64,000 nt of DNA from Tateyamaria omphalii (lineage in GTDB: Bacteria; Pseudomonadota; Alphaproteobacteria; Rhodobacterales; Rhodobacteraceae). Shown in pieces: positions 15,827-24,370 of this stretch. The stretch covers positions 310,001 to 374,000 of the forward strand of contig NZ_BMWT01000005.1 of NCBI RefSeq assembly GCF_014651375.1, read 5' to 3'. The position numbers and the translations under genes were made by a program. Under the pieces are notes generated by a model, which worked only from the letters and a program-made list of their open reading frames with translations, had not been told where the DNA came from and ran no database searches. How positions within the stretch are numbered: position 1 is the first letter of the stretch; each line of letters starts with the position of its first letter.

Positions 15827-17653
15827 ATGTCTGCAGTAGAACATATCAAAGAGATTGAAGCCGCTCTGTCAGAACGCCCCGTGCAACGCGACGACTTTGT
15901 TGTGGCGTCATGGCGCAGATGTGTTGAACAACATGGCCTTGATCCAACCAAACCTACGCCTGCGTATATTTTGCCGGAACGCGAACTGCGGCATCATCAG
16001 CAACAGGCTGAACGATTGACGTTGATCGCAAGGTCGGGCTTGGAAGACCTGTTTCGGCAGGTTGCGAGCCAGAACTATGTTCTATTGCTTACGGATGCTC
16101 AGGGTATCACTGTCGACTACTTTGGTGACGCAAATTTTGAAGACGATCTTCGCGCCTCCGGTCTATTCCTTGGGTCGGCATGGTCGGAAGCACAATCAGG
16201 AACAAATGGCATAGGCGCTTGTATCGCCACAGGTAGGGCCGTCACGGTTCATCAGAAGGATCATTTTGATCTGCACCATGTCCCCTTAAGTTGCAGCGCT
16301 GCGCCCATTTATGATCTTCGGGGCAGTTTGGCAGCTGTACTAGACGTGTCTTTGCTGCGATCCCCGCAACCAAAGGCGACGCAGGCCCTGGCGTTGCACA
16401 TGGTCAAGACGGCGGCACGGCGCATTGAACTTGCAAACTTGACGGCCGAAATGAGCACTAAGTGGGTGTTGCGTTTGTCCAGGCGGCCCGACTTCGTCGA
16501 TGTGGACCCGGACGGCGCATTGGCCGTCGATGATGCCGGGACAATCATCGGGGCCACACGACAGGCGCAACTCTTGTTGAGGGATCCGTCAAACAGCCAG
16601 GTGGTAGGGCGCTCTCTGACCTCGGTTCTCGACCTCGATCTTGACGACCTTCCTACGTTCTCAAGGATCCGTTCGACGAAAGAGCGTTGCGTGTTCCTGA
16701 AATCAGGTGATGTCGTTTACGCCCACGCAATCGCTCCGCAACCTCGGGTTCGAACGCGCAGAGATTCTAAGCCTTCAAAACTATCAGGCCCGTTTGCGGC
16801 CTTGCACTGCGGTGATTGGAACGTCGAACAGACATTGAACAAGGCGGAACGCTTGGCACAAAATGACTTGCCGATCTGGATAACCGGGGCCAGTGGCACT
16901 GGTAAGGAACGGCTCGCGCGTGCAATACACAGTAAACGCGATGAGCGCGCTCCGTTTGTCGTCGTTCAATGTGCGGACTACCCCGGAGCTGAGTTGGAAA
17001 CGATCTTGTTCGGCACCAGGGGCGATGATGATGGTTTGATTACGCATGCTCGTGATGGTGTGTTGTTTCTGGATGCAGCAAATGAAATGTCCGCGGCCGT
17101 TCAATCACGGCTGGCGCGTGCGCTGACAGATGATGGGATCCGACCAGCAAACGGTGCTAACCCAATATCCATAAAGGCCAAAATTATTTCGGCCAGCACG
17201 ATGCCCATATCGGACTGCAAGCTGCGCGACGATCTGATGTTTCGCCTTGGCGGCGCGTGTCTTGACCTGCCCAATTTGGATGATCGTGCCGATATTGATG
17301 GTCTGGTCGACAAGATCATAAGACTGGCTGGTATTGCAGCGCCAAAGACATTCAAAATCTCGGACGGTGCCCGGTCGCACCTTAGAAACCGCAGCTGGCC
17401 CGGCAACATCAGAGAACTGAAGAACACCTTGAGGGTTTCAATGGCTCTTAGCGACGATGGGTTCATTGATTTGGAACACATTCCTCAACCCGTCACCAAA
17501 GCGGCGACAGGTCATGAGGGTCATAACACTGCAGACCTTGAACGCTGTTTGGATGAATGCGGTTGGAATATATCGCGTGTGGCGCGCCTCCGCGGCGTGG
17601 ACAGAACAACAATCCACAGACAGATGAAGCGGGCCGGGATCACGCGCCCTTAA
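15827..17653 (+). CDS. AcoR-like transcriptional regulator with degenerate AAA+ domain
   Basis: A 608-aa regulator. The start at 15827 is preferred because TTGGAGGAAACG before it supplies the ribosome-binding site. The order is AcoR-type N-terminus (SWRRCVEQHGLDP), a GAF-like sensor (about 65-200, with GTNGIGACIATG), a PAS-like stretch, an AAA+ domain (about 340-540) and a FIS-type helix-turn-helix at the C-terminus (NISRVARLRGVDRTTIHRQM). Walker A is intact (GASGTGKE, near 355). The GAFTGA loop that touches sigma-54 is missing (LFGTRGDDDGLI), and Walker B reads FLDAANE where FLDEIG(D/E) is normal. It probably regulates without sigma-54 and may not hydrolyse ATP. The flavin monooxygenase gene 145 bp downstream is the likely target. 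Confidence 0.88.
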   Translation: MSAVEHIKEIEAALSERPVQRDDFVVASWRRCVEQHGLDPTKPTPAYILPERELRHHQQQAERLTLIARSGLEDLFRQVASQNYVLLLTDAQGITVDYFGDANFEDDLRASGLFLGSAWSEAQSGTNGIGACIATGRAVTVHQKDHFDLHHVPLSCSAAPIYDLRGSLAAVLDVSLLRSPQPKATQALALHMVKTAARRIELANLTAEMSTKWVLRLSRRPDFVDVDPDGALAVDDAGTIIGATRQAQLLLRDPSNSQVVGRSLTSVLDLDLDDLPTFSRIRSTKERCVFLKSGDVVYAHAIAPQPRVRTRRDSKPSKLSGPFAALHCGDWNVEQTLNKAERLAQNDLPIWITGASGTGKERLARAIHSKRDERAPFVVVQCADYPGAELETILFGTRGDDDGLITHARDGVLFLDAANEMSAAVQSRLARALTDDGIRPANGANPISIKAKIISASTMPISDCKLRDDLMFRLGGACLDLPNLDDRADIDGLVDKIIRLAGIAAPKTFKISDGARSHLRNRSWPGNIRELKNTLRVSMALSDDGFIDLEHIPQPVTKAATGHEGHNTADLERCLDECGWNISRVARLRGVDRTTIHRQMKRAGITRP

Positions 17654-17798
17654 AGCCACAAGGTGTGGCACTGGTCCGCAATGCAACACAAATCCGCAAT
17701 CACTTGCGCTGCAATGCGGCGCCCGCCACCTCTTTGGATAGGCCAGCGTCACATTGCCAGTAATGATCGCATCCAATTACGAAAGGGAGGATCAGTTT

Positions 17799-19598
17799 AT
17801 GCTGGATACATCACACGGCGATCAAATGGAGAGCATGCTCAATCGGTTCGGGAACGCCTTGGAAAATGGGCGAGTTGATGAGGCAGTTTCCATGTTCCAG
17901 ACAGATTGCTATTGGCGCGACCTGGTCTCATTTACCTGGAACATCCGCACGATGGAGGGGCAGGACGCGATCCGCGACATGCTGCAAACACAGCTTTCAG
18001 CTATCAAACCCACGGGTTGGCAAATTGCGGAGGGCGAGGCGGTCACGGAAGACGGCGGCATCGTCACGGCATGGATCACCTTCGAAACCGGTGTTTCACG
18101 TGGCTATGGCCTTGTCCGTGTGAAAGATGGTTTGATCTGGACGTTGCTTACGTCGATGACAGAGCTGAAGGGTTACGAAGAGCCGCTTGGCTATGAACGT
18201 CCCTTGGGCGCCAAACACGGCGCGGGAAAGGGTCGGAAATCCTGGCGTGAAGAACGTGACGATGAGATTGCTGAGCTTGGCCATTCTGTCCAGCCTTACA
18301 CGGTAATCATCGGAGGCGGGCAGGGCGGAATTGCCCTTGGCGCACGGCTGCGTCAACTGGGTGTGCCCACAATCATCATTGAGAAAAATGACAAGCCTGG
18401 AGACAGCTGGCGCAATCGCTACAAGTCGCTCTGCCTGCATGATCCGGTCTGGTATGATCACCTGCCTTACCTGCCGTTTCCATCAAACTGGCCCGTTTTC
18501 GCGCCCAAGGACAAAATCGGCGATTGGTTGGAGATGTATACCAAGATCATGGAGTTGAACTACTGGACCAATACGACAGCAAAATCGGCCAAGTTCGAGG
18601 ATGAGACCGAGGAATGGACCGTTGTCGTAGAGCGTGATGGCAAGGATATCACGTTAAGGCCGAAGCAGTTGGTTATGGCCACCGGTATGTCGGGAAAAGC
18701 CAATGTGCCGACCTTCCCCGGTATGGAAAAGTTCAAGGGCGATCAGCACCATTCGTCAAAGCATCCCGGCCCGGATGCCTACAAGGGCAAGAAGGCCGTT
18801 GTTATCGGCTCAAACAACTCGGCCCACGATATCTGCGCTGCACTTTGGGAAAACGACGCCGACGTGACGATGGTTCAGCGTTCGACAACGCATATCGTCC
18901 GGTCTGATCCACTCATGGAATTCGGCCTCGGGGACCTGTACTCGGAGCGCGCCCTCGAAGCGGGTGTGACAACACAGAAGGCAGACATGATCTTTGCCTC
19001 TTTGCCCTACAAGATCCTGCATGAGTTCCAAAAACCTGTGTATGACAAGATCAAGGAAGTGGACGCAGACTTCTACGACGGGCTTGAGAAGGCTGGTTTC
19101 CGACTGGACTGGGGTGCCGATGGATCAGGACTGTTCATGAAGTACCTGCGTCGCGGTTCAGGCTACTATATCGACGTCGGCGCCAGCCAGTTGATCATCG
19201 ATGGCAAGATCAAGCTCGCCAATGGTCAGGTGAGCGAAGTGGTCGAGGATGGTGTGTTGCTCGAGGATGGGACCAAACTTGACGCTGATCTGATCGTTTA
19301 CGCCACGGGCTACGGCTCGATGAATGGTTGGGTTGCGGATTTGATTGATCAGGACACCGCGGACAAGGTTGGCAAGTGTTGGGGGCTTGGCTCTGACACA
19401 CCCAAGGATCCCGGACCTTGGGAAGGTGAGCAGCGCAATATGTGGAAGCCGACACAACAGGAAAGCCTGTGGATGCATGGCGGCAATTTGCATCAGTCGC
19501 GCCACTATTCGCAATATCTCTCTCTGCAGCTGAAAGCGCGCTACGAAGGCATCGACACACCCGTTTATAAGCTGCAGGAATCCCATCATCTGGGTTGA
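17799..19598 (+). CDS. NTF2-like / flavin-containing monooxygenase fusion
   Basis: A 599-aa protein. The ATG at 17799 follows GAAAGGGAGG at ideal spacing; upstream in-frame starts lack this. Residues 1 to about 130 form an NTF2/SnoaL-like alpha-beta domain (ALENGRVDEAVSMF, YWRDLVSFTW). Then follows a class B flavin monooxygenase: FAD site IIGGGQGGIALGARL (near 170), an ATGMSGKANVP segment, and NADPH site VIGSNNSAHDICAAL (near 335), with YATGYGS near the C-terminus. Such enzymes insert oxygen into carbonyl compounds or oxygenate N/S atoms. It is the only gene between the AcoR-like regulator and a terminator, so it is probably controlled by that regulator. Confidence 0.9.
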   Translation: MLDTSHGDQMESMLNRFGNALENGRVDEAVSMFQTDCYWRDLVSFTWNIRTMEGQDAIRDMLQTQLSAIKPTGWQIAEGEAVTEDGGIVTAWITFETGVSRGYGLVRVKDGLIWTLLTSMTELKGYEEPLGYERPLGAKHGAGKGRKSWREERDDEIAELGHSVQPYTVIIGGGQGGIALGARLRQLGVPTIIIEKNDKPGDSWRNRYKSLCLHDPVWYDHLPYLPFPSNWPVFAPKDKIGDWLEMYTKIMELNYWTNTTAKSAKFEDETEEWTVVVERDGKDITLRPKQLVMATGMSGKANVPTFPGMEKFKGDQHHSSKHPGPDAYKGKKAVVIGSNNSAHDICAALWENDADVTMVQRSTTHIVRSDPLMEFGLGDLYSERALEAGVTTQKADMIFASLPYKILHEFQKPVYDKIKEVDADFYDGLEKAGFRLDWGADGSGLFMKYLRRGSGYYIDVGASQLIIDGKIKLANGQVSEVVEDGVLLEDGTKLDADLIVYATGYGSMNGWVADLIDQDTADKVGKCWGLGSDTPKDPGPWEGEQRNMWKPTQQESLWMHGGNLHQSRHYSQYLSLQLKARYEGIDTPVYKLQESHHLG

Positions 19599-19736: not shown

Positions 19737-21248
19737 TCAGGCGAACGTGCCCGCAAACTGTTCTCTCAACGCTTTCTTCTGAACTTTCCCCATCGTGTTT
19801 CGGGGAAGTTCCGGTAGCAACACCAACTGTTGTGGCTGTTTGAAGCGTGCAAGCGACGCCGTCATGTTGGCAGCTATGGCGTCAAGGTCCGGCTCTTGGT
19901 CGGGCTTGGCAACGATGACAGCCAGAACACTTTCGCCGAAATCAGGGTGAGGCACCCCGATAACGGCACTTTCCAGAACGCCGTCTTGCTCATCCAAAAT
20001 CAGCTCGATTTCCTTGGGGTAGATATTGTACCCGCCAGAGATAATGAGGTCTTTGTTGCGCCCGACGATTGTCACATAGCCGTCCTCGTCAACCATTCCC
20101 AAATCGCCGGTGATAAAGAAACCGTCCGTGCGAAGCTCCTCAGCGGTTTTATCGGGCATCTGCCAATACCCCTGAAAGACATTTGGACCGTGCACCTCTA
20201 TCTGGCCGATGTCACCGTTCGGGATTGTCTGGCCAGTCTTGGGGTCGGTGATCTTTACCTCGATCCCGGGCAACGGAAAACCAACCGTCCCGGCGCGGCG
20301 CTCACCCTCATAGGGATTTGAGGTGTTCATGTTGGTCTCGGTCATTCCGTATCTTTCAAGAATACGATGACCCGTTCGTTCTTCGAATTGTATGTGGGTG
20401 TCCGCCAAGAGCGGGGCGCTGCCCGACACGAAAAGCCGCATGTGGGCGCTCAGCTCTTTAGTGAACCGCTTGTCACCCAGTAGGCGTGTATAGAATGTCG
20501 GAACGCCCATCATTGCAGTGGCGCGCGGAAGTTCTGTGATCACTTCGTCCAGATCGAACTTTGGCAGAAAAATCATCTGGCCACCGCACAGTAGGGTGAT
20601 GTTGGTCGCCACGAACAGCCCATGTGTGTGAAAGATGGGCAACGCGTGCAACAAGATGTCCTGCGACGTGAAACGCCACTCCTGCCTCAGCACCTGAGCG
20701 TTGGACAGCAAGTTACCCTGGCTCAACATTGCCCCTTTTGAACGACCAGTCGTACCAGAGGTGTACAGCAGGGCCGCGAGATCACCTTCTGAGCGTGGAA
20801 CAGTCTCGAAGGATGCGGGGAACGAGACTGCCAGGGACGGAAAGGAGCCCGCCCCATCAGCATTCAGAGTCTCCAGTTTCGCGTTGCACCGATCTGCTAT
20901 GGTTGCGAGGGCGTCACGTCTGCTTTCGTCTCCCAAGACCAGACGCGCGCCGCTGTTCTCAACGAAATATGCCACTTCCGCAGGCGTGTAAGCGGTGTTG
21001 AGCGGAAGGAAGACAAGACCTGCCTGCACACACGCTGCATACACAGCCAGCGTTTCCGGCGATTTTGCGGTTTGAACGGCGACGCGATCCCCGACAACAA
21101 GGCCCATGCTGGTCATGGCGCCTGCATATTGTGCAGCACGGTCAAGGAACGCTTTGTAGCTTAACGAACGCCCGCCGGGCAGTTGAAGAAACTCCGCATC
21201 GCTCGTGCTATGTTGGCCGAACAGTGTGTCGAAAAGTGGGTTGGGCAT
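19737..21248 (-). CDS. matB: Malonyl-CoA synthetase
   Basis: A 503-aa ANL-superfamily acyl-CoA synthetase, MatB-like in length. Seen are the P-loop-like LLYTSGTTGRSKGAM, the ERYGMTE motif, TGDLGMVDEDGY, the hinge GRNKDLIISGGYNIYPKEIE, and the catalytic lysine in PRNTMGKVQKK. The reaction is malonate + ATP + CoA to malonyl-CoA + AMP + PPi. It is the last gene of the operon, 16 bp after the malonyl-CoA decarboxylase, with a TRAP transporter upstream. That context is what makes malonate (rather than another acid) the probable substrate. Confidence 0.9.
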   Translation of the reverse strand: MPNPLFDTLFGQHSTSDAEFLQLPGGRSLSYKAFLDRAAQYAGAMTSMGLVVGDRVAVQTAKSPETLAVYAACVQAGLVFLPLNTAYTPAEVAYFVENSGARLVLGDESRRDALATIADRCNAKLETLNADGAGSFPSLAVSFPASFETVPRSEGDLAALLYTSGTTGRSKGAMLSQGNLLSNAQVLRQEWRFTSQDILLHALPIFHTHGLFVATNITLLCGGQMIFLPKFDLDEVITELPRATAMMGVPTFYTRLLGDKRFTKELSAHMRLFVSGSAPLLADTHIQFEERTGHRILERYGMTETNMNTSNPYEGERRAGTVGFPLPGIEVKITDPKTGQTIPNGDIGQIEVHGPNVFQGYWQMPDKTAEELRTDGFFITGDLGMVDEDGYVTIVGRNKDLIISGGYNIYPKEIELILDEQDGVLESAVIGVPHPDFGESVLAVIVAKPDQEPDLDAIAANMTASLARFKQPQQLVLLPELPRNTMGKVQKKALREQFAGTFA

Positions 21249-21264
21249 TGGTCTCTTTGACTAT

Positions 21265-22506
21265 CTAGTTCTTTGACGGGTGGCACGCCGCAAGCGCATG
21301 CACTTCGGGCGAGGCAGCGACAGCCTTGTCAGTTACGAAATGCTCGTGGTTGGCTGTGATGCGTGACAGATCATAGATGTAGTTCACCATTGCACCTCTG
21401 GATTGCTGCAAACCCTTTTCGGACAGATCTGCGTCCGCATGGACCGCATGTATGGACGCTCCATTGCCCAAATGAAACCGCGCAACCGGGTCCACAGGCA
21501 ATCCATCCGCGCGTTTTGCCTCAAGCAAGTAATGGGCAACACTGACCTCAATCGCTGTGCTGCTTTGCAAAAGCGGTTGCGTCTCCTTGTCCAGCCAACG
21601 TTTCAGGCCCGGCACGGGCGACAACGTCACGAATGTTTCGAGGCCAGAAAGGTCCCGCGACAGATCGGCGACCACTTGTTTGATCAGTGAGTTTCCGAAG
21701 GAAATTCCAGCGAGGCCGTCCTGACAATTGGAGATGGAATAAAAAACCGCGGTATCCGCCTCCTCTTCTTCAATCGGATCACGTCCGTCGGCCAGAAGGG
21801 TCTGAATGGAACTCGGGATGCCCCGGGTGAGCGCGACTTCGACAAAGATCAATGGATCGTCTGGTATGGCGGGATGAAAGAACCCAAAACACCTGCGGTC
21901 CGAAGGCTGCAATCGGCGACGCAAATCGTCCCAGCTGTCGATCGCGTGGACAGCTTCGTACGCAATGATTTTTTCCAGTATTTCTGCCGGGCTGGACCAA
22001 TCAATGGGCCGCAGAACCAGAAAGCCGCGGTTGAACCATGATGTAAACAAATGCTGAAAATCGACATCAAGCGGTTCGAGCGTTGGCACGTCACGCATCA
22101 TCCGCAAGAGGTCCTTGCGCATGGATACCAAGTGCTGAGTGCCCCCGGGCACCTGGTTCAAACGGCGCAACAACTCTTGCCGCTTCGGTTCGCTGGCGCG
22201 TACAAATTCACTGTAGCTGCTCTTTGAAGGGGTTTCCTTGTAGATCTTGAGGCTTTCGACAACATCCACAGGGTCAATTTCCAGGTCGTGCATCATGAAC
22301 GCAAAGAATGCTTGCCTATGCTGATCGTCGCCGCTGCTATATTGCCGAAGAATAAGATGTGCGAGCGTGCTGCCTGACACTTCTCCACGCGCGCCAAGTA
22401 GGTCCCGGGACAGTTCTGTTATCGTACGGCCTTGGGCGTCAGATGAGACAGCACGTGCATAGCGCCGCTCGAAAACTGTGGAGATGAGATCAGCGAAGTA
22501 ACTCAT
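21265..22506 (-). CDS. matA: Malonyl-CoA decarboxylase
   Basis: A 413-aa malonyl-CoA decarboxylase: an N-terminal helical domain (about 1-150) and a C-terminal acyltransferase-like catalytic domain. It shows HLVSMRKDLLRMM, WSSPAEILEKIIAYEAVHAI, FHPAIPDDPLIFVEVAL and the C-terminal FHLGNGASIHAVHADADLSE followed by GAMVNYIYDL, all typical of the family. It converts malonyl-CoA to acetyl-CoA + CO2 in the cytoplasm. Together with MatB it channels imported malonate to acetyl-CoA. Its start overlaps the stop of the TRAP large subunit (ATGA). Confidence 0.94.
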   Translation of the reverse strand: MSYFADLISTVFERRYARAVSSDAQGRTITELSRDLLGARGEVSGSTLAHLILRQYSSGDDQHRQAFFAFMMHDLEIDPVDVVESLKIYKETPSKSSYSEFVRASEPKRQELLRRLNQVPGGTQHLVSMRKDLLRMMRDVPTLEPLDVDFQHLFTSWFNRGFLVLRPIDWSSPAEILEKIIAYEAVHAIDSWDDLRRRLQPSDRRCFGFFHPAIPDDPLIFVEVALTRGIPSSIQTLLADGRDPIEEEEADTAVFYSISNCQDGLAGISFGNSLIKQVVADLSRDLSGLETFVTLSPVPGLKRWLDKETQPLLQSSTAIEVSVAHYLLEAKRADGLPVDPVARFHLGNGASIHAVHADADLSEKGLQQSRGAMVNYIYDLSRITANHEHFVTDKAVAASPEVHALAACHPSKN

Positions 22507-23819
22507 ATCGCGGTGCCCATGACAGCGTTAGGCAGCCATGTGGCCAGACCCGGGAAGATACACAACAGGATGATCGCGATCACCATACACGCCACGAAAG
22601 GAAGCGATCCCTTGAGGATCGTTTTAAGCGAGATATCAGGTGCAATGCCGTTGATGACATAGAGGTTCAAGCCAACCGGAGGCGAAATCAGTCCGATTTC
22701 CATGTTGATGGTCAACACCACAGCAAACCAGATAGGGTCAAACCCCGCCGTTGTTATGATGGGCAGTAGGATGGGGGCCGCCATCAAGATCACGGCAACC
22801 GGAGGTAAGAAGAACCCAGCAATCAAAAGGAAAACATTGACGGCTCCCATAAGCACCCAGGGGTTCACGTCCAGTGTGCCAATCCATGCCGCAATGGACT
22901 GCGTGATGAACAGGCTGGACAACATGTAGGAAAAGACACCTGCCGCCGCGATGATGAACAGGATCATCACGCTTTCCTTTGTGCTGTCACGCAGCACCAA
23001 CCACAGGTCCTTGGGGTTCCACAGCTTGTAGATGATCATGGCGATCATCAGGCACAGAAGCGCTCCGACAGCTGCTGTCTCAGACGGCGTCGCGACACCA
23101 CCGTACATCGCATACAGCACGCCAATAATGATAAAGATGAATGGCAGGACCCGCGGCAGTATTTCGAGCCTTTGCCGCCATGTGTAGTTTGCGTGGGCCA
23201 GCAAGGCACGATCCCCGGACCGCCATGTCGAATACAAAGACCACACCATAAACAGACCCACCAGCAACAAGCCTGGGATGACACCAGCGAGGAACAGGCG
23301 ACCGATAGATTGTTCGGTCGCGATGCCGTAGACGATCATGGTAACCGACGGAGGGATCAGGATACCAAGAGTGCCACCCGCCGCAATCGAGCCCGCTGCA
23401 ACGCCATCGGGATACCCACGCTTGCGCATCTCGGGAATACCCATCTTACCAATCGCGGCGCATGTTGCGGGGCTGGATCCGGACATTGCGGCAAACAGGG
23501 CACATGCCCCTAGGTTCGAGATCACAAGCCCACCGGGAACGCGGGTGAGCCACCGTTCAAGCGCTTCGTAGAGGTCGGCCCCCGCCCGGGTTGATGCAAT
23601 CGATGCGCCCATGATGATGAACATCGGGATCGACAACAGCGCGAAGTTGTCCAACTTGCCGAACAGGATCTCTGGCATCAATTCCAGCGAACGCACGCCG
23701 TCAAAAACCATGATGAAGCCTGTTGAGATAATCAGCAGCCCCAGTGCCACCGAAACACCTGAGAACAAGACCAGGATCGTGCAAACCGCGACAAGAGCAC
23801 CAAGCGTGAGCGGGTCCAT
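22503..23819 (-). CDS. matM: TRAP transporter large permease (DctM family), probable malonate uptake
   Basis: A 438-aa membrane protein with about a dozen hydrophobic segments. The start at 23819 (MDPLTLGALVAVCTILVLFS) is chosen because it overlaps the small-subunit stop and begins the first membrane helix. Family motifs include the GSSPATCAAIGKMGIPEM stretch and GGTLGILIPPSVTMIVYGI. It is the channel subunit of a sodium-driven TRAP importer. Order P-Q-M followed by matA and matB matches the malonate matPQMAB arrangement described in rhizobia. Confidence 0.92.
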   Translation of the reverse strand: MDPLTLGALVAVCTILVLFSGVSVALGLLIISTGFIMVFDGVRSLELMPEILFGKLDNFALLSIPMFIIMGASIASTRAGADLYEALERWLTRVPGGLVISNLGACALFAAMSGSSPATCAAIGKMGIPEMRKRGYPDGVAAGSIAAGGTLGILIPPSVTMIVYGIATEQSIGRLFLAGVIPGLLLVGLFMVWSLYSTWRSGDRALLAHANYTWRQRLEILPRVLPFIFIIIGVLYAMYGGVATPSETAAVGALLCLMIAMIIYKLWNPKDLWLVLRDSTKESVMILFIIAAAGVFSYMLSSLFITQSIAAWIGTLDVNPWVLMGAVNVFLLIAGFFLPPVAVILMAAPILLPIITTAGFDPIWFAVVLTINMEIGLISPPVGLNLYVINGIAPDISLKTILKGSLPFVACMVIAIILLCIFPGLATWLPNAVMGTAI

Positions 23820-24370
23820 CACACGTCCTCCAGGCCGAATGGTTTTTCGATCCCAAGCAGCATGGCGACCATGTCGGCAACCAATTGCAGCAGGAAAAGT
23901 GCAAAACCGAATGGCAGCGCCAGATAGGGTATCCACAATCTGACGCCCCAAACCGTGTCCGAGCGCCAGTTCCGTTCCCAGGTCAGATGCCAGAACTCAT
24001 AGCTGTACCACAGCATGATCGACACCATGATGATGGACAGGGATAGGGTGAAAACGGCGAGGGCAAAGCGCAAACGTTTGCTCAACGCCAGTGGCACAAG
24101 GTCTACGTTCACGTGCCCACGAAGACGCTGGACGTAGGGCAGGCCTACCAACGTTGCCCCGATGGCAAGATAGATAACCGCTTCTGTTTGCCAGATGGTC
24201 GATCCATTCAAAACAAAACGGATGAAGATCATCTGGCAAGTAATTGCAACAGCTGAAACAATCATCGCTGCAGAGCACCAACCCGCCAGTGTCGATAGTG
24301 CAGCCACAAAGCGCAGAAACGGATTGTTACCCGTGCGCGCTATCGCGGCGGAGCTTTGACCCGCCATCAT
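23819..24370 (-). CDS. matQ: TRAP transporter small permease (DctQ family), probable malonate uptake
   Basis: A 183-aa protein with four hydrophobic segments typical of DctQ (around LAGWCSAAMIVSAVAITCQ, AVIYLAIGATLVGLPYV, FALAVFTLSLSIIMVSIML and IPYLALPFGFALFLLQLV). It forms the membrane complex with the large permease, whose start overlaps its stop. Two adjacent ATG codons (24370 and 24367) are possible starts. Confidence 0.9.
   Translation of the reverse strand: MMAGQSSAAIARTGNNPFLRFVAALSTLAGWCSAAMIVSAVAITCQMIFIRFVLNGSTIWQTEAVIYLAIGATLVGLPYVQRLRGHVNVDLVPLALSKRLRFALAVFTLSLSIIMVSIMLWYSYEFWHLTWERNWRSDTVWGVRLWIPYLALPFGFALFLLQLVADMVAMLLGIEKPFGLEDV

Follow-up and report, generated by a model that had tools for sequence, protein, structure and literature searches.

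The protein encoded at positions 15,827 to 17,653 of the window, by which we mean the whole stretch of 64,000 nucleotides of Tateyamaria omphalii DNA analysed here, is a bEBP variant without the GAFTGA motif, made unusual by the graded natural series to which it belongs, and its independence of sigma-54 is well supported by sequence comparison. As a fuller explanation, we consider it rather probable that it is a bEBP-derived, sigma-54-independent regulator, controlled by a ligand of its GAF domain, that activates the neighbouring flavin monooxygenase (FMO) gene together with sigma-70 polymerase and keeps ATP bound as an assembly aid that would scarcely be hydrolysed.

The regulator and its AAA+ domain

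The reading frame of this regulator (P0001) opens with an ATG preceded by GGAGG, and Pfam assigns to its 608 residues a GAF domain (67-203), a Sigma54_activat match (332-475, 92.9 bits), AAA_lid_14 and HTH_8. Its features are the following.

15827..17653, + strand: regulator gene, GAF + degenerate sigma-54-activator AAA+ + Fis-type HTH, 608 aa
16025..16435, + strand: GAF sensor domain, residues 67-203
16820..17278, + strand: AAA+ core, residues 332-484, with a predicted fold like that of the NtrC1/PspF AAA+ domains
16886..16909, + strand: Walker A GASGTGKE, intact, residues 354-361
16967..16969, + strand: Q at the equivalent of PspF N64, the glutamate-switch partner
17006..17041, + strand: loop 1 (L1) region LFGTRGDDDGLI, residues 394-405, without GAFTGA
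17060..17089, + strand: Walker B VLFLDAANEM, residues 412-421, with A where E is normal (codon 17075-17077)
17225..17245, + strand: RxDxxxR (arginine-finger) motif RDDLMFR, intact
17396..17419, + strand: Sensor II WPGNIREL, intact
17537..17632, + strand: Fis-type HTH (HTH_8)

AcoR has the domain order GAF, AAA+ and Fis HTH, and the GAF, AAA+ and HTH_8 domains that mark the AcoR/DhaR architecture are all present in P0001. The name "AcoR-like" given by the initial annotation is fair as a class name, whereas the best NCBIfam profile is that of DhaR, whose equivalog cut-off lies far above the score obtained (551 against 216.2 bits). P0001 shares its domain order with AcoR-type sigma-54 activators, a type to which the loop-bearing homologues next to the same FMO belong; it differs from them in lacking GAFTGA, the N64 and E108 equivalents and a sigma-54 partner. 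A search of the genome contigs for related loci returned one close locus only.

Translation and alignment confirm the motifs that had been quoted from the sequence, namely Walker A GASGTGKE, LFGTRGDDDGLI in place of a GAFTGA loop and FLDA at Walker B. The loop 1 region is 9 residues shorter than in the loop-bearing homologue L013 (G117). Aligned with PspF, the protein keeps K42, E43, D107, R162, D164, R168 and R227, the last being the sensor II arginine, and has Q for N64 and A for E108. Apart from R227, PspF residue numbers follow PMC3419264, and their equivalence to P0001 was set by alignment. In an AlphaFold2 model (36 rows; mean pLDDT 87.4, pTM 0.53) the AAA+ fold is kept: the top Foldseek chains are multi-domain NtrX of Brucella, with a TM by target of about 0.5, and AAA+-only chains such as 1ny6 (NtrC1) and 4qnm (PspF E108Q) reach 0.82-0.85.

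A sequencing error at the two motifs was rejected, because the two nearest orthologues, from the same genus, read likewise at both: G255 (84% identity) has LFGDNSGDGGLV and FLDAADEM, and G263 (73% identity) has LFGDQQGNEGLI and FLDAVNEL. The reading frame is intact in all three species, and comparison with G255 gives a dN/dS of 0.08 for the whole gene and 0.07 for the AAA+ core, with synonymous sites near saturation. On these values the gene is under purifying selection.

In PspF, N64 and E108 are described as a "glutamate switch" pair that couples substrate binding to the ATP site (PMC4132715). The reported Vmax falls from 39.5 to 0.15 per min in E108A, with a Km of 100 instead of 250 uM, and to 1.5 per min in N64Q (PMC3419264); according to the same two sources, PspF without the Walker B glutamate has nearly abolished hydrolysis and retained ATP binding. 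These laboratory mutants are changed at the same two positions as P0001, but they are engineered single mutants that keep GAFTGA, which P0001 does not. Given the PspF mutants, the Walker B lesion taken by itself would be insufficient as proof of sigma-54 independence. What P0001 lacks extends beyond that residue: of the features of functional sigma-54 bEBPs, a GAFTGA-type L1 loop, a Walker B DE with the N64/E108 pair, and a genomic sigma-54 with a -24/-12 site at the target were each sought and not found in P0001, its genome and its target. P0001 does show what marks GAFTGA-less, sigma-54-independent bEBP relatives: the AAA+ fold of bEBPs together with a Fis-type HTH, and no L1.

Sigma-54, the monooxygenase promoter and the half-sites

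The genome, of 4.75 Mb and 100% complete, gave no hit with profiles for the RpoN domains Sigma54_DBD and Sigma54_CBD, which were positive in 4 of 14 controls, and RpoN exceeded the cut-off in none of the 20 genomes of the genus, one of which (G262) gave a sub-threshold match. Sigma-54 dependence is therefore excluded for this host as far as the assembly goes. Five further bEBP-like proteins in the same genome also lack GAFTGA. These (L001, L002, L004, L005 and L006) are response regulators showing decay of varying degree, including loss of the Walker A lysine in L006 (GAPGTGIS) and LED at Walker B in L004; two of the five look, by inspection, like NtrX and NtrC.

A search of the family matched 28 of 246 genomes, with a best match of at least 42% identity in 23, a count that leaves out hits of 25-30% identity (G078, G039, G065, G156, G073) and additional distant copies in G041, G112 and G208. 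The loop-less form occurs in 20 of these 23 genomes, and a GAFTGA/NSFTGA form with FLDE in three (G117, G196, G165). RpoN is present in all three of the latter and in 12 of the 20 loop-less genomes, and on this ground the idea that the loop disappeared as a consequence of losing RpoN was rejected. Sampling of the class matched 10 of 337 genomes, nine of them outside the family and all nine RpoN-positive. On this sampling of sequences, the loop-less state is common to a whole lineage.

Downstream of the regulator lie the following features.

17654..17798, + strand: regulator-FMO gap, 145 nt
17655..17688, no strand assigned: putative operator GCCACA-N3-TGTGGC-N13-GCAACA, found by inspection
17799..19598, + strand: type II flavin monooxygenase (FMO), SnoaL-like N-domain + FMO, 599 aa

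The nearest PDB relative of the FMO is 8acs (JsFMO; E 6e-286), for which a SnoaL-like N-domain and ketone and thioester substrates are described (PMC10028610). Pairing of regulator and FMO is conserved in relatives across the phylum. Beyond the FMO, at 19737-23951 on the minus strand, convergent genes for an AMP-dependent acyl-CoA ligase, a malonyl-CoA decarboxylase and a TRAP transporter (DctM) probably form a cluster for malonate use, which is found at the same place in G255 and not in G263.

The initial annotation had found no sigma-54 promoter before the monooxygenase gene, and this holds: the best match to TGGCACG-N4-TTGC in the 145-nt gap is 6/11, no better than in shuffles. A consensus scan recognised no sigma-70 -35/-10 pair in the same gap. 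For comparison, loci were gathered around regulator hits and FMO hits; of 397 genomes of the phylum, 45 had an FMO with an E value of 1e-180 or lower. Of 77 loci searched, 67 have an FMO and ten do not; 44 loci in 43 genomes have an adjacent regulator, and the 23 FMO loci without one by the limits used were left out, with a distant or remnant regulator in L061, L153 and L159. A 367-aa row of the loop-bearing L124 locus was dropped, being a second frame there with a GAF domain only.

Among the 44 pairs, 13 regulators carry a GAFTGA-type loop with FLDE and 31 are loop-less. Shuffled gaps yield a 9/11 match at a rate of about 2-4%. Of the 13 loop-bearing loci, 12 have a match of 9/11 or better, located between -48 and -120 relative to the FMO start; G636 is the exception, with a best match of 8/11. 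Over the whole gap the proportions are 12/13 against 3/31 in loop-less loci (Fisher p 3e-7), and over the last 135 nt before the FMO, or fewer where the record ends, 12/13 against 0/31 (Fisher p 6e-10); the 9/11 threshold and the 135-nt zone were chosen after the data had been seen, and the p values overstate the case because the 44 loci are related, with perhaps three independent switches (the main clade, G046, and G770/G824). All three loop-less matches lie at -144 to -152 and owe their TTGC part to a GTTGC half-site. A -24/-12 site hidden in loop-less loci and visible by relaxed matching was rejected, these three GTTGC-based matches beyond 135 nt being the only candidates.

Gene pairs are divergent in 7 of the 13 loop-bearing loci against 1 of the 31 loop-less ones. 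Within 400 nt downstream of nine canonical regulators the best -24/-12 match is 11 in G403 and G303, 10 in G117 and G397, 9 in G196 and G543, and 8 in G484 and two G555 copies; G543 and one G555 copy have an 11/11 match on the divergent side. Elsewhere, L153 (G641) retains an N-terminal regulator remnant only, before an FMO with a perfect -24/-12 match (11/11), perhaps an orphaned sigma-54 promoter, and seven family FMO loci (L134-L140, 75-81% identity) have no regulator of the P0001 type in the few kb retrieved around them.

At the regulator end of the gap, P0001 and its orthologues in G255 and G263 share a putative operator GCMACA-N3-TGTKGC-N13-GCRACA, whose half-site TGTGGC/GCCACA resembles that of the canonical G403 locus (TGTGGC...GCCACA), where the half-sites lie at the same end of the gap, ahead of the -24/-12 site. 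The gaps of 25 of the 31 loop-less loci contain GTTGC-N(4-7)-GTTGC-N4-GCAAC, whose palindrome has its centre between -114 and -128 relative to the FMO start; by shuffling, 0.004 gaps would be expected to contain a palindrome of this sort. The arrays had first been spotted by eye and were afterwards counted in the same gaps. The array is absent from the three window-clade loci, from G046, G770 and G824, and from 13 of 13 loop-bearing loci, and the operator sequence thus differs between loci. What the loci have in common is thus the placing of half-sites next to the regulator, with drift in their sequence and change in the core promoter. In several of the gaps of L059-L072, a loosely conserved TGCCAGCCTC-like box was noticed by eye about 45-60 nt before the FMO start; it may belong to the core promoter or be what is left of the -12 box.

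Possible order of loss and alternative readings

Among the 44 pairs, neither N64 nor E108 survives in any of the 29 loop-less regulators that have an AAA+ domain. R168 and R227 are kept in every one of them, and position 42 holds K in 28 and R in the other; E43 is present in 17, R162 and D164 in 18 and D107 in 5. The 13 loop-bearing regulators keep all nine of these residues. What goes first is thus the pair that serves coupling and catalysis; one subclade shows partial losses beyond it, and the lysine of Walker A, R168 and sensor II are spared.

The regulator of G470, one of the nine RpoN-positive genomes matched outside the family, has a shortened loop LFGSTGTHGPTRHGLI with N64, D107 and E108 intact; its best downstream -24/-12 match is only 7/11, and the contig ends soon after, with no FMO seen. 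Trees unite G470 with the window clade and with a clade of 21 rows from the family to which the window clade belongs (support 100/98; 100/97 without the motif columns) and place G470 beside the 21 rows, not outside (97/88; 94/84 without the motif columns). This position would imply two separate losses of E108, one in the window clade (FLDA) and one in the 21 rows, whose Walker B mostly reads LRG or LRR, although with a single origin forced the AU test gives p 0.054 and one loss is not rejected. G046, which has lost loop, N64 and E108, forms a long branch among the canonical rows; its losses are seemingly independent, and the tree program warns that such a row is placed with little certainty. 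A loop-less regulator beside an FMO occurs also outside the family, in G779. G770 and G824 belong to another class of the phylum; their regulators have no AAA+ domain at all, and the reading frame, which encodes GAF + HTH in 392 codons in G770 and 419 in G824, ends 82-84 nt before the FMO. Regulators of this kind directly before an FMO were seen at L143 (G770), L144 (G824) and also L115 and L119, with no -24/-12 site.

The last of these states bears on the best surviving alternative, which we judge unlikely while giving it real weight: that P0001 works as a GAF + HTH regulator, its AAA+ domain being a decaying scaffold that needs no nucleotide and serves as a spacer or an aid to dimerisation. 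Besides the AAA+-less proteins of G770 and G824, it is favoured by the loss of E43, R162 and D164 in 11-12 of the 29 regulators and by column conservation, where the AAA+ domain is the lowest of the domains in a 25-row loop-less clade (0.624, against 0.80 for N-terminus + GAF, the best conserved part) and the highest in 12 canonical rows (0.767, against 0.652), two sets that differ in depth. Against it, the pattern in the 29 regulators is selective, not random, with N64 and E108 gone and K42, R168 and R227 almost invariably kept, and dN/dS in the AAA+ core is 0.07 against G255.

A second alternative, to which we give somewhat less credence, holds that P0001 today chiefly represses the FMO gene, at a sigma-70 promoter, and that ligand lifts the repression. 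TyrR also acts as a repressor, which counts in favour of this reading, and an activator-type promoter was not identified in the gap. The GAFTGA-less NtrC of Caulobacter is likewise described as repressing some promoters (PMC10274813). Three weak points stand against repression: the arrays in the 25 loop-less gaps are nearly fixed in position at the regulator end, canonical G403 has its half-sites there too, and a repressor site would instead be expected over the core promoter.

That P0001 is a pseudogene decaying after the loss of RpoN, as the length of the stem leading to the window clade (0.98 changes per column) might suggest, is highly improbable, being contradicted by purifying selection on an intact frame, by the conserved HTH residues and half-sites, and by the loop-less forms in RpoN-positive family genomes. 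Continued service to sigma-54 through an unusual loop, for which one may cite the kept AAA+ fold and the reported action of PspF E108 variants on pre-opened DNA (PMC4132715), is less credible still, and for this host it is contradicted by the missing RpoN domains in genome and genus and the missing -24/-12 site.

Proposed mechanism and relation to known regulators

In the explanation that we prefer, a canonical bEBP would be the ancestor of P0001, which probably binds the repeated half-sites just 3' of its own gene and, to judge from the conserved pairing, probably has the adjacent type II FMO as its target. A ligand of the GAF domain would alter the assembly of the protein on DNA, and DNA-bound P0001 would recruit or assist the housekeeping sigma-70 polymerase, remodelling of polymerase by the AAA+ domain having presumably been abandoned. 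The retained Walker A, RxDxxxR and sensor II motifs suggest that ATP is still bound, and with the contact loop and both glutamate-switch residues gone, hydrolysis, by comparison with the PspF mutants, would be very low, so that ATP may act as a poorly hydrolysed assembly aid. We infer DNA binding, the ligand, activation rather than repression, the sigma-70 contact, ATP binding and the absence of hydrolysis. The initial annotation had the protein acting with sigma-70; sigma-54 independence, the first half of that proposal, is borne out by the absence of RpoN and of a -24/-12 site and by the link between loop and promoter in relatives, whereas sigma-70 itself is reached by elimination. The further idea of a possible nucleotide-sensing switch draws on the residues that remain at Walker A, R168 and sensor II. 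The two relatives without an AAA+ domain speak against an ATP-gated view in that ATP binding may be dispensable. Also to be weighed against the preferred explanation are the gap's lack of a recognised sigma-70 promoter, the incomplete retention of E43, R162, D164 and D107 in the 29 regulators together with the one R at position 42, the low conservation of the AAA+ core, the absence of the GTTGC array from loop-bearing loci and the hydrolysis that Caulobacter NtrC is reported to need.

GAFTGA-less bEBPs working with sigma-70 are established, among them the NtrC proteins of R. capsulatus, other Rhodobacterales and Caulobacter, and VpsR; R. capsulatus NtrC, with its L1/GAFTGA loop deleted, is described as needing ATP binding rather than hydrolysis, and Caulobacter NtrC as requiring hydrolysis (PMC10274813). 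Rhodobacter NtrC resembles P0001 in the missing loop, but it is a two-component response regulator with another target, whereas P0001 is a GAF protein; the host's own L005, taken for NtrC by inspection, keeps the Walker B DE (LIDEIGDI) that P0001 lacks. DhaR, TyrR and HupR are listed as bEBP homologues without GAFTGA that act with sigma-70 (PMC3162934), and E. coli DhaR is thus like P0001 in its missing motif, sigma-70-dependent according to that source, yet no dihydroxyacetone kinase occurs among the eight proteins scanned in the neighbourhood of P0001. HupR, TyrR and VpsR are, like P0001, bEBP relatives that have lost interaction with sigma-54 (PMC3162934, PMC10274813); they have other targets. 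FleQ is reported to be active at both sigma-54 and sigma-70 promoters (PMC10723142). About 110 homologues with minor GAFTGA deviations, one of them in the sigma-54-less Jannaschia sp. CCS1, are reported in PMC3162934, and this set could include members of the P0001 family. Among the papers listed by searches of open-licence PMC, none dealt with the regulator-FMO pair or on the joint loss of loop, N64 and E108.

We tentatively suggest, as a possibility that we rate below the mechanism itself, that loop, promoter and glutamate switch are lost as one functional unit, loop and promoter before the catalytic pair and probably repeatedly. A sigma-54 motor would thereby have become a hydrolysis-dead, ATP-gated assembly module driving sigma-70 polymerase in a lineage of AAA+ regulators that is widespread around the host's family of Alphaproteobacteria, within a single conserved regulator-target pair, and one further lineage would have dropped the AAA+ domain altogether.

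GAFTGA-less bEBPs have become known one by one, and how an activator and its promoter move jointly from sigma-54 to sigma-70 is less clear. Here a single regulator-FMO pair is found in several states, canonical with a -24/-12 site, without loop, glutamate switch or -24/-12 site, and without the AAA+ domain, and G470 adds a relative in which the loop is shortened and the catalytic residues are intact. Exchange of parts between such natural relatives could test in what order the losses came and whether ATP is needed. In genomes without RpoN, labels such as "sigma-54 activator" on proteins of this kind can mislead.
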